A stretch of 64,000 bases of DNA from Desulfosudis oleivorans Hxd3 (GTDB taxonomy: Bacteria > Desulfobacterota > Desulfobacteria > Desulfobacterales > Desulfosudaceae), in contig NC_009943.1 of the NCBI RefSeq assembly GCF_000018405.1, forward strand, positions 2,607,001 through 2,671,000. Reading direction: 5' to 3'. The translations under genes were made by a program, and so were the position numbers. This document shows positions 3,192-14,981 of this stretch, piece after piece. Each line of letters begins with the position of its first letter. The stretch's first letter is position 1. The notes beneath the pieces were generated by a model that made no database searches, was not told the DNA's origin, and saw only the letters and a program-made list of their open reading frames with translations.

Positions 3192-3264
3192 TGGGCCCAC
3201 CTGGGATCGAACCAGGGACCGACCGGTTATGAGCCGGTGGCTCTGCCAGCTGAGCTATGGGCCC
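3192..3264 (-). tRNA. tRNA with CAT anticodon (elongator Met, or Ile2 if lysidine-modified)
   Basis: A 73-nt cloverleaf on the minus strand with acceptor stem GGGCCCA/TGGGCCC, D arm TAGCTCAGCTGGCAGAGC, anticodon loop CTCATAA and T loop GTTCGATCC. The anticodon is CAT. G1 pairs with C72, so it is not an initiator tRNA, which has an unpaired first base. The 3' CCA is not encoded. CAT could also mark the isoleucine tRNA whose C34 is converted to lysidine; the sequence alone does not decide this. Confidence 0.95.
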
Positions 3265-9302: not shown

Positions 9303-9378
9303 TGGTGGAGATGAGGGGGATCGAACCCCTGACCTCGGCATTGCGAACGCCGCGCTCTCCCAGCTGAGCTACATCCCC
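9303..9378 (-). tRNA. tRNA-Ala (CGC)
   Basis: A 76-nt cloverleaf including an encoded CCA end. The acceptor stem GGGGATG/CATCTCC contains the G3-U70 wobble pair that marks alanine tRNAs. The D arm is TAGCTCAGCTGGGAGAGC, the anticodon loop TTCGCAA (anticodon CGC, codon GCG) and the T loop GTTCGATCC. Confidence 0.97.
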
Positions 9379-10891: not shown

Positions 10892-11788
10892 TCATTTTGG
10901 CCTGTCTGCTGCAATGAGGGTGCAAAATGCATTTGCCGCCGGGGACTGGCTGCGGTCCCTGAGAAAGGCCAGGTAAAACACCCGGGTCAGTTTTACGCCC
11001 CGCAGGGCCAGGGCCTTTAACATACCGGCCCGTACATCCGCGGCCACCGCCATGGAAGACAGAACAGAAACACCGATACCGCTTTTAATCCCCTGGACCA
11101 CCGCCTCGGTGCTGCCGAGCTCGGCCACCACATTCAGCCCCTCAATACCTGCTCCACGGGCCGCCAGGCTCTCTTCCAGAGCGCTTCTTGTACCCGAACC
11201 CCGCTCCCGGACAATAAAGGGCTCCTTTGCCAGATCCGCCACCGCCACCGTTTTTCTCCCGGCCCAGGGATGGGATGCCGGCACCACCACCCGCATCTCA
11301 TCGGTAAGAAACGGCTGCTGAACGATCCGCCGGTCAGCGGTCCGGCCGCCGACCACCGCCAGCTCCGCCTTTCCGGAAAGAATGTCAAAAAAAACTTTTT
11401 CCGTATCACCGACCAGAAGACAGACCGTCACCTGGGGATAGGCCCGGCGGTATGCACCGATCAGGCCCGGCAGGATATGACCGGCGGGAATGGTGCTGCC
11501 GCCGATCACCAGCCGGCCGGCTACCCGGCCCTGATAGCCGGCCATCTCCGCCTCGATCCCGTCGTACCGGGCCAGCAGATCCGAAGCCTGCCGGTACAGC
11601 AGTTCCCCTGCCGGGGTCGGTGCCACAGACCGGCCCAACCGGTCGATCAACCGGCAGCCAAAATGATCCTCCAGGTCCTTCACATGACTGCTCACCGTGG
11701 GCTGGGAAAGACGGACACCCGCCGCCGCCCTTGAAAAACTCCGCAGCTCCACCACCTTGCAGAAGACGCGCAATCGCCAGAGATCCAT
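10892..11788 (-). CDS. LysR-type regulator paired with yedF (selenium-associated LysR)
   Basis: A 298-residue LysR-type transcription factor. Residues 2-60 are the winged helix-turn-helix (LWRLRVFCKVVELRSFSRAA and LSQPTVSSHVKDLEDHFGC). The remainder is a CysB/CysL-like periplasmic-binding-protein effector domain. It is divergent from yedF with a 126-bp shared region, the usual layout for a LysR protein and its target, and in several anaerobes a regulator of this type accompanies yedF in selenium loci; that link is from family knowledge, the effector is unknown. The ATG at 11788 follows GGAGG at a spacing of 5. Confidence 0.85.
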   Translation of the reverse strand: MDLWRLRVFCKVVELRSFSRAAAGVRLSQPTVSSHVKDLEDHFGCRLIDRLGRSVAPTPAGELLYRQASDLLARYDGIEAEMAGYQGRVAGRLVIGGSTIPAGHILPGLIGAYRRAYPQVTVCLLVGDTEKVFFDILSGKAELAVVGGRTADRRIVQQPFLTDEMRVVVPASHPWAGRKTVAVADLAKEPFIVRERGSGTRSALEESLAARGAGIEGLNVVAELGSTEAVVQGIKSGIGVSVLSSMAVAADVRAGMLKALALRGVKLTRVFYLAFLRDRSQSPAANAFCTLIAADRPK

Positions 11789-11914
11789 GACCACCTCCGT
11801 TGCATAGATTTTTCAGATACGTTGCAATGACATTATTAATCCTTCCGGTTTGACAAATCAATCGGACCGGGCAATAATTATTTTTGAATGTTCCTTTCTG
11901 ACCAAGGAGATGCC

Positions 11915-12508
11915 ATGACCCCCATCGACGCCCGGAATCTGGCCTGCCCGGGACCGGTTTTAGCGGCCAAGGCCTTTATTGAGCAGAACGACCCCAACCG
12001 CATCACCATTGTGGTGGACAATGAAGCAGCCCGGCAGAATGTCGAACGTTTTCTGTCCAGCCAGGGGTACGACATGCAGGTGGAACAATCAGACGACACA
12101 TGGACCATCACCGGTATTCGCAAATCCGGCGCTGCCTTTCAGGAAGAAAAAATTCCGGTCCGGGAGCACGGGAGCGCCACCCTGGTGCTGATTTCATCGG
12201 ACCGGCTGGGCCGGGGCGACGACGACCTGGGCGAAAAACTGATGGCCAGCTTCATCAAGACCTTGGAAGAGATGGGCACCGATCTCTGGCGCCTTGTATT
12301 TGTCAACAGCGGGGTCCGGCTGACCATTGACGGTTCCGCCGTTCTGCCGGACCTTCAAAAATATGAAGCCGCGGGAACTCGACTGCTGGTCTGCGGCACC
12401 TGCCTGACCCATTTTGACCTGATGGACCGGAAGCAGGTGGGGCAGACCACCAACATGCTGGACATCGTCACCGCCATGCAACTGGCGGAAAAGGTGATCG
12501 TGATCTGA
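11915..12508 (+). CDS. yedF: Sulfurtransferase-like selenium metabolism protein YedF
   Basis: A 197-residue protein with two parts. The N-terminal TusA-like domain has the CPxP motif with Cys11 (DARNLACPGPVLAAKAFI), the persulfide or selenide carrier residue. The C-terminal part is DsrE/DsrF-like and has a CGTC pair (LLVCGTCLTHF). This fusion is the form that occurs in genomes which use selenium, where a role in selenium delivery is proposed but not proven. The ATG at 11915 follows AAGGAG. The selenoprotein peroxiredoxin lies 1.7 kb downstream, which supports the selenium connection. Confidence 0.9.
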   Translation: MTPIDARNLACPGPVLAAKAFIEQNDPNRITIVVDNEAARQNVERFLSSQGYDMQVEQSDDTWTITGIRKSGAAFQEEKIPVREHGSATLVLISSDRLGRGDDDLGEKLMASFIKTLEEMGTDLWRLVFVNSGVRLTIDGSAVLPDLQKYEAAGTRLLVCGTCLTHFDLMDRKQVGQTTNMLDIVTAMQLAEKVIVI

Positions 12509-14006: not shown

Positions 14007-14132
14007 GCCTTTTACCGTCTGTCGGTATCAATAAACAACGAGGGGTAGTGCCGACAGCTATTTCACATATCGGGAACAACAGGCGCCCTCTTCTTGTTGC
14101 CTGCGAGTCACCAGCCCCCAGCCCGCTTTCGA

Positions 14133-14161
14133 TTGACTCTTTTTGAAAAAATCGAAATAAT
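14133..14161 (+). promoter_or_regulatory. Sigma-70 promoter for the selenoprotein peroxiredoxin
   Basis: TTGACT (14133-14138), a 17-nt spacer and AATAAT (14156-14161), five of six bases matching in each box. The first candidate start codon is 97 nt downstream. Confidence 0.75.
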
Positions 14162-14258
14162 GGGAAAAACAGGTTCCCTGCACCGTAGCAGAAGAAGCCG
14201 GATGACCCATAACGATTCGCGATCATCGTCGGCACCCGGCGAAAAAAGGAGGTTGCAA

Positions 14259-14981
14259 ATGCCAAAAGAGGAAAAGGTAGGATGCGCCCGCCCCACCGGC
14301 GGCGTGGTAGGACAGAAAAAAACCGAGGAGAACAAAGAGACAACCGCATCACCCGCCAAGGAGGTGAGACCCATGATTCAGGTAGGAAAACCAGCCCCCG
14401 ACTTTGTAGCGCCCGCGTATCACAAAGGCAAATTCACATCCGTCAAACTTTCCGACTACCTGGGCAAATGGGTGGTGCTCTGCCTGTACCCGGGTGACTT
14501 CACCTTTGTCTGAGCGACCGAAATTGCGGCGGTCGCCGCGAACCACAAGGCCTTTCAGAAGCTGGGAGTGGAACTTTTTTCCATGAGCGTGGACAGTGTG
14601 TTTGTGCACAAGATGTGGAACGACAATGAGCTGACGAAAATGGTCAAGGGCGGTATTCCCTTTCCCATGCTCTCCGACGGCGGCGGCAAGGTCGGCACAG
14701 CCTACGGCGTCTATGATGAAGATGCCGGGGTAGAAAACCGGGGGCGGTTCATCATTGATCCGGACGGTGTGATTCAGGCTTACGAAGTGCTCACCCCGCC
14801 GGTGGGCCGGCACGTGGCCGAAACCCTGCGGCAGATTCAGGCCTTTCAACTGGTTCGAAAATCCAAAGGCAGCGAGGCCACACCCTCCGGGTGGAAGCCG
14901 GGTAAACTAACTCTCAAGCCCTCTCCTGACCTGGTCGGCAAGGTGTGGGAGGTGTGGGAGACCAAAATGGAGTCTGAGTAA
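14259..14981 (+). CDS. Selenocysteine-containing peroxiredoxin (in-frame UGA at 14511)
   Basis: AhpC/TSA-family peroxiredoxin that reduces peroxides. The reading frame stays open across a TGA at 14511-14513, placed exactly where the peroxidatic Cys belongs: [18 protein letters not shown], compared with the canonical DFTFVCPTE. Sec is residue 85 of the 240-residue long form, or 47 of a form starting at 14373. Both starts have excellent ribosome sites (AGGAGG before 14259, AAGGAGGTGA before 14373); the short form fits family length, the long form adds a Lys/Glu-rich leader with VGCARPTGG. The C-terminal resolving Cys is absent (ATPSGW instead of VCPAGW). A SECIS-like hairpin follows the UGA. 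Own promoter and terminator. Confidence 0.93.
14511..14541 (+). promoter_or_regulatory. UGA-Sec codon and bacterial SECIS-like hairpin
   Basis: The TGA at 14511 is followed 17 nt later by a GGTC loop (14531-14534) closed by TTGCGGC (14524-14530) and GCCGCGA (14535-14541), a 7-bp stem with one G-U pair. The GGUC apical loop and its distance match the E. coli fdhF SECIS, where the loop begins 18 nt after the UGA. An alternative, mutually exclusive fold pairs GCGACCG (14514-14520) with CGGTCGC (14530-14536). This element would recruit SelB with Sec-tRNA. Confidence 0.85.

Follow-up and report, generated by a model that had tools for sequence, protein, structure and literature searches.

Peroxiredoxins containing selenocysteine (Sec) constitute an established family (PMC13188914, PMC1794560, PMC9312934; cited, like the other papers below, from excerpts). 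In PrxU of Eubacterium acidaminophilum, Sec replaces the peroxidatic Cys (Sohling et al., 2001), as it does in the protein treated here. The selenocysteine peroxiredoxin of Desulfococcus multivorans, a close relative, is split into two locus tags, dmul_C20060/70 (PMC5109826), and the excerpt, on whose description the likeness rests, mentions neither a tail nor an internal start. A peroxiredoxin atlas distinguishes classes by the presence and position of the resolving Cys (PMC5302317). The same family as in our window is described by the NCBIfam model NF040737 (PrxU, thioredoxin-dependent peroxiredoxin), the name of which refers neither to an internal start nor to a relocated resolving Cys. Its profile spans the region of the N-terminal tail discussed below, so that the extension itself was already known to curators. 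Sec of the E. acidaminophilum protein is reportedly located at about residue 47, and the protein would accordingly be without this tail.

The window, i.e., the whole stretch of 64,000 nucleotides that was analyzed, corresponds to C1:2607001-2671000 of the genome of the non-pathogenic sulfate reducer Desulfosudis oleivorans Hxd3, which consists of a single contig (C1) of 3,944,167 bases. The features on which the following comparison relies are, in window positions:

10892..11794, minus strand: neighboring gene for a selenium-metabolism-associated LysR regulator (NF040786, 281.7 bits, cut-off 250)
11888..12508, plus strand: neighboring gene yedF, selenium metabolism (TIGR03527, 219.8 bits, cut-off 110)
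14245..14249, plus strand: Shine-Dalgarno sequence GGAGG of the long start ATG 14259 (duplex of -12.3 kcal/mol in the window)
14259..14981, plus strand: prxU coding sequence, long form, 240 amino acids, stop codon TAA included (NF040737 match)
14280..14303, plus strand: tail motif GCARPTGG with Cys9 (codon 14283-14285), the proposed resolving Cys (conservation)
14313..14372, left end approximate, plus strand: hypervariable linker of about 20 codons (sequence comparison)
14360..14364, plus strand: internal Shine-Dalgarno sequence GGAGG within the linker (AAGGAGGT, Lys-Glu-Val; conservation)
14373..14375, plus strand: internal ATG (Met39), from which the proposed 202-amino-acid short form would be translated (conservation)
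14511..14513, plus strand: TGA, selenocysteine codon at the peroxidatic position, U85 (frame reading, family conservation)
14524..14541, plus strand: SECIS hairpin with a 7-bp stem and the loop GGTC at 14531-14534 (pairing and covariation)
14877..14894, approximate, plus strand: EATPSG(W) segment with Thr at the place of the C-terminal resolving Cys of Prx1/AhpC (alignment)

The window furthermore contains an RNase P RNA of class A (688-1080) and tRNA genes at 3192-3264 and 9306-9378, all on the minus strand.

A first-pass annotation had proposed a peroxiredoxin gene that is open on both sides of an in-frame TGA and would be cut in two by automated gene callers. Reading of the frame bears this out: TGA 14511-14513 is the single interruption of a frame of 240 amino acids, in which it becomes residue U85 when translated, and a standard ORF listing indeed gives two pieces, 14094-14513 and 14568-14981. 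The peroxiredoxin identity is corroborated by the equivalog model NF040737, which matches with 417.9 bits (cut-off 270) and aligns residues 6-237 with positions 1-233 of its 233 positions, and Pfam matches were obtained for AhpC-TSA (130.1 bits) and 1-cysPrx_C (35.4 bits). The active site, PGDFTFVU, fits the Prx1/AhpC motif PxxxTxx(C/U), and the closest solved relatives by sequence are Prx1/AhpC-type enzymes. An AlphaFold2 model built on 43 sequences, tail-less relatives included (monomer, Sec as Cys), reached a mean pLDDT of 88.7 and a pTM of 0.82. The best Foldseek matches in the PDB are likewise Prx1/AhpC proteins (5zte, TM-score by target 0.88-0.93 for the first six chains; 1n8j, 0.94), and PrxU of the window is predicted to have the Prx1/AhpC fold. 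In the same model, pLDDT is 50-59 for residues 1-30 and 85-98 for the ten-residue blocks from residue 41 on; in monomer models with Sec modeled as Cys, which do not bear on contacts between tail and active site, the tail is of low confidence and shows no contact with Sec85. An AlphaFold2 run on 35 tail-bearing sequences alone was set aside (mean pLDDT 59.5).

Judged by its sequence, the gene almost certainly encodes a selenocysteine peroxiredoxin, a further member of the known selenoprotein family PrxU. The initial reading is right but incomplete, as the enzyme departs from a plain 2-Cys peroxiredoxin by more than the inserted Sec. While the predicted fold and the Pxxx(T)xx(C/U) active site are shared with typical 2-Cys Prx1/AhpC enzymes (1n8j, 5zte, 1qmv), PrxU of the window is devoid of the C-terminal resolving Cys and carries a Cys-bearing N-terminal tail. 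The tail, the missing C-terminal Cys and the second start at 14373 were absent from the first-pass annotation.

Relatives were drawn from two sets. The closest set consists of the window gene and the best 80 of 345 loci in genome contigs, and the second set of 80 loci (L107-L186) from 395 sampled genomes of the phylum, 130 of which contain a PrxU match over the cut-off. The first active-site pattern was fitted by 67 of these 80 loci and not by the other 13, of which twelve were added by alignment and one (L166), which ends at a contig end, was excluded, giving 160 genes. Cultured organisms with a tail-bearing prxU include Desulfatitalea alkaliphila. One record (L021), metagenome-assembled and titled Bordetella parapertussis, carries a prxU that groups with those of anaerobes, and its name looks wrong.

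TGA occupies the peroxidatic codon in all 81 genes of the closest set and in 149 of the 160 family genes (window included), which stem from many phyla; the other eleven have a Cys codon at this place, in agreement with the earlier proposal that TGA stands in for the peroxidatic Cys. Among the first 148 genes the numbers are 139 TGA and 9 Cys codons, among the 12 loci added later 10 and 2. The hairpin that follows the TGA covaries above chance and is a SECIS element. Its stem is formed by 14524-14530 and 14535-14541, with one T-G pair, and begins after 10 bases, while the loop begins after 17 bases, exactly the distance noted earlier for a GGUC loop. All seven pairs are formed in 103 of 133 distinct TGA-bearing genes, six in 23, five in 4 and three in 3. 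The test for covariation was limited to three pairs, variation in the other four being too small: pair +17/+26 is formed in 133 of the 133 genes (shuffle mean 91.1), +14/+29 in 122 (55.7) and +15/+28 in 123 (76.5), and for each pair none of 1000 shuffles scored as high. AGTT (64) and GGTC (62) together account for 126 of the 133 loops. In nine Cys-coding relatives, two to six of the seven pairs are formed. The Rfam model SECIS_1 (RF00031) is uninformative, since it matched neither in the own genome nor in any of 14 control genomes.

The genome contains selA (597.3 bits), selB (373.7 bits) and selD (374.4 bits), each over the curated cut-off, as well as a gene for tRNA-Sec (selC; 75.1 bits, over cut-off) with a UCA anticodon according to ARAGORN; selD itself has one in-frame TGA. 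A lack of Sec machinery, named in the first-pass annotation as an argument against its reading, can thus be discounted, and the nearby yedF and its LysR partner are both upheld by family models. Given this strong sequence evidence, UGA 14511-14513 would be decoded as Sec with the aid of the downstream SECIS, SelB and tRNA-Sec. Table 1 of PMC2702500 gives 0 selenocysteine-containing proteins for the Desulfococcus oleovorans Hxd3 genome; set against selA-D, prxU and the TGA within selD, this likely reflects an annotation gap. Two further AhpC/TSA-domain frames with one in-frame TGA each, C1:3038566-3038871 (plus strand) and C1:1571864-1572157 (minus strand), are candidate selenoproteins. A second tRNA-Sec-like gene (L002, C1:3561047-3561140, minus strand; Rfam 54.7, cut-off 47; UCA anticodon) differs from the canonical selC (L001) in that its discriminator base is U and its end pair is mismatched. 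Predicted tRNA-Sec without G73 are regarded as probably not functional (PMC5330540).

With regard to the resolving residue, the window protein reads EATPSGW where Prx1/AhpC proteins have EVCPAGW, i.e., Thr replaces the C-terminal resolving Cys. At the other end of the protein, the literal motif GCARPTGG is present in 81 of the 81 genes of the closest set, followed in 118 genes by a freely varying linker of 17-26 codons. Parsimony on the core tree counted 0, 0 and 38 changes for the three bases of the tail Cys codon and 0, 0 and 61 for those of the Gly codon at +6 from it; as far as can be read from codons, the tail is translated and under selection at the protein level. The tail motif, written as a degenerate DNA pattern, matched solely prxU in the own genome and is therefore not a tag shared with other proteins there.

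The tail is present in 119 of the 160 genes. Of these, 115 are without a scored C-terminal Cys, two have the canonical one (L176, L185) and two a VC variant (L173, L175), so that the canonical residue is absent from 117 of 119 tail-bearing genes and occurs together with the tail only in the two genes named; 109 of 118 tail-bearing genes have no Cys anywhere past the Sec/Cys site. The 41 tail-less genes, on the other hand, comprise 19 with the canonical Cys, 11 with AC or VC, 6 with a shifted PCGW and 5 with none, i.e., a C-terminal Cys of some kind is found in 36 of 41. Two genes nested within the tail clade (L128 and L129; 96% SH-aLRT, 6-row set) have lost the tail and feature EACPAGW. Together with these two genes, the distribution is as expected if the tail Cys serves in place of its C-terminal counterpart, although it amounts to 3 state changes on the tree and 2-3 independent pairs, for which the sign test gives p 0.5 and significance is unreachable. 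Five tail-less genes without a scored C-terminal Cys (L136, L146, L150, L153 and the very divergent L169) indicate that a resolving Cys is not strictly needed. L169, a Sec-containing relative, has an N-terminal LGAC-type segment and is perhaps a lipoprotein form. On balance, we lean toward the view that the tail Cys is the resolving residue, moved from the C-terminus.

The linker ends with Lys-Glu-Val or the like, followed by two or three residues and then Met39 (AAGGAGGT at the DNA level). The internal ATG follows 8 nt after GGAGG and matches the start of tail-less relatives. Statistics on this site refer to the 118 tail-bearing genes among the first 148 (112 distinct around the site; L178 left out). 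The internal ATG is present in 118 of 118, with 0 changes at its three bases by parsimony on the core tree. Exact GGAGG precedes it in 100 of the 118 genes as compared to 22.9 expected from synonymous recoding with each gene's own codon use, a test that counts related genes as independent. In the 18 genes lacking exact GGAGG the four-base core is kept in all but L171; re-choosing the internal Met among close Met residues by Shine-Dalgarno context raised the number with the core from 114 to 117 and left exact GGAGG at 100 of 118. The same cores contain 602 other in-frame ATGs; GGAGG precedes 8 of them and the four-base core 71, and for none does pairing with the anti-Shine-Dalgarno sequence reach the level of the median internal site.

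Parsimony, which takes relatedness into account, albeit on a core tree with many weak forks, yielded 24, 12, 10, 9, 5, 4 and 10 changes at sites -15 to -9. The mean for linker sites -45 to -16 is 42.2, with 40 or more at wobble sites; this linker minimum of 40 compares with 10 changes at -13 and 4 at -10, the wobble sites of the Shine-Dalgarno sequence. Conservation of the internal GGAGG is therefore not explained by relatedness. Among the 112 distinct genes the motif starts at -13 in 82, at -16 in 7 and at -10 in 5, while at any one position from -61 to -28 it occurs in at most one. The gap to the ATG is 8 nt in 87 of the 100 genes with GGAGG, and the three reading frames of the motif are represented by 97, 2 and 1 genes. 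Within the divergent tail clade it is found in 13 of 15 genes. In the 20 genes with low third-position GC, codon -4 is GAG in 15 and GAA in one, as opposed to 99 vs. 226 in the rest of the same genes. As judged from these comparisons, the internal Shine-Dalgarno sequence and start codon are conserved as nucleotides.

The long start is preceded by GGAGG in 96 of 117 genes, and median pairing is practically the same at both sites (-11.6 kcal/mol for the long start, -11.65 kcal/mol for the internal one). Two equally equipped starts point to two products, and the short form is probably produced; of the two isoforms, one would carry the Cys tail and the other lack it. Of 29 tail-less genes in which a suitable Met exists, 27 show GGAGG at the corresponding start; in the simplest history, an old start would have remained active when the tail was acquired upstream of it. 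The four tail-less genes L136, L146, L150 and L153, all without a scored C-terminal Cys, stem from four genomes with one genus code. Three of these genomes (G207, G230, G367) also have a match covering the profile from position 1 or 2, and for the fourth (G183) no full-profile second match is listed. By sequence, the four genes look like the proposed short form as a separate gene, as if split off by duplication.

Several other explanations have to be weighed against this picture. That the TGA is a true stop, the gene being a pseudogene or the codon a sequencing error, has next to no probability: nothing speaks for it beyond the stop codon itself, Sec genes are present in the genome, and the same codon is TGA in nearly the whole family across many phyla, accompanied by a covarying SECIS. 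Conservation among relatives, both in the closest set and in the 160 genes, rules out a one-off error, and this candidate was rejected. A real, if not the favored, possibility is that the tail Cys does not resolve, that Sec85 is resolved by Cys75 or an outside thiol, and that the tail is a docking site for a reductase, metal or partner. Cys75, located 10 residues before Sec, occurs at exact spacing in 114 of 118 tail-bearing but only 9 of 30 tail-less genes and thus accompanies the tail, which makes it a rival resolving partner; moreover, four tail-less genes do without both tail and C-terminal Cys, and ARPTGG around the tail Cys is conserved beyond the needs of a bare resolving Cys. However, Cys75 also co-occurs with the canonical C-terminal Cys, namely in 6 of 16 tail-less CPA genes, and sits in a core strand (residues 71-76) of the AlphaFold2 model, and tail loss in L128 and L129 coincides with a C-terminal Cys.

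For the second start, it is conceivable but unlikely that PrxU is a single-product gene in which the internal Shine-Dalgarno sequence and Met are relics of the ancestral start and the short form is unimportant. The match of the internal site to the start of tail-less genes is what a relic origin would predict. A relic should decay, though; neighboring linker sites show 29-60 changes each, the wobble sites of the motif 10 and 4, and the ATG none, and in three genes GGAGG has been kept in another reading frame. Shine-Dalgarno-like motifs within coding regions have been proposed to slow ribosomes. Such motifs are depleted in coding regions (PMC5100845). An action of the internal motif on elongating ribosomes rather than on initiation, as a pause ahead of the Sec codon or in aid of folding, would draw on the slowing proposal but is very improbable, as the ATG that follows the motif at initiation spacing is invariant and would be superfluous for a pause signal.

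Returning to a PrxU with two starts and a resolving tail, we propose that one mRNA is translated from ATG 14259 into the tailed form and from ATG 14373, with its own conserved Shine-Dalgarno sequence, into a tail-less form without the resolving Cys. By analogy with the family, Sec85 would attack the peroxide and become a selenenic acid. Cys9 at the tip of the flexible tail, proposed as partner because the C-terminal resolving Cys is missing, would then form a selenenylsulfide with Sec85, either within one subunit or across to the partner subunit, and a thioredoxin-like reductant would open this bond. Depending on the ratio of long to short form, more or fewer subunits of an oligomer would be resolved internally, the others being dependent on an outside thiol. 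No gene partner is conserved near prxU in more than 11 of the 81 loci, many of which are shortened, so that the gene neighborhood does not name the reductant. Recurring neighbors in these loci are a pyridine nucleotide-disulphide oxidoreductase with a rhodanese domain (11), a FUR-family regulator (10) and a NifU-like protein (7), which are few, but fitting peroxide stress.

Pairs of N-terminal proteoforms in Salmonella resemble our proposal in that two in-frame starts give a long and a truncated product (PMC11005335). According to the excerpt, those pairs were shown by ribosome profiling, while the prxU case is one of sequence conservation across many phyla, and in contrast to them the truncation in prxU removes a presumed catalytic residue. 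Mixed Prx1-type oligomers occur in eukaryotes (PMC13038412), and together with in-frame alternative starts this makes mixed oligomers of long and short PrxU subunits plausible. In the open-access literature searched, a phrase search for a peroxiredoxin with an N-terminal resolving Cys found none, and no text on an internal start or a relocated resolving Cys in PrxU was found. Reviews include the N-terminus among the possible locations of the resolving Cys, so that the location alone may not be new.

Taken as a whole, the model of a selenoperoxiredoxin in which a tail Cys resolves Sec and dual starts give tailed and tail-less forms appears rather likely in its overall direction, as far as sequences can tell; that both new parts, the short form and resolution by the tail Cys, hold together is put forward more tentatively. 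The Sec peroxiredoxin itself is already known. If true, a peroxiredoxin with its resolving Cys shifted to an N-terminal tail would be new, as would dual initiation making subunits with and without the resolving Cys from one gene. The locus is also a clear example of a start signal conserved within a coding sequence; such signals go unreported by annotation pipelines. It may be, although we would not yet call it probable, that this widespread selenoperoxiredoxin is made in self-resolving and non-resolving forms from one gene, with translation setting the resolving share in the oligomer; the peroxidase would then be tuned at the level of translation, toward thioredoxin-type cycling or toward reliance on an outside thiol.
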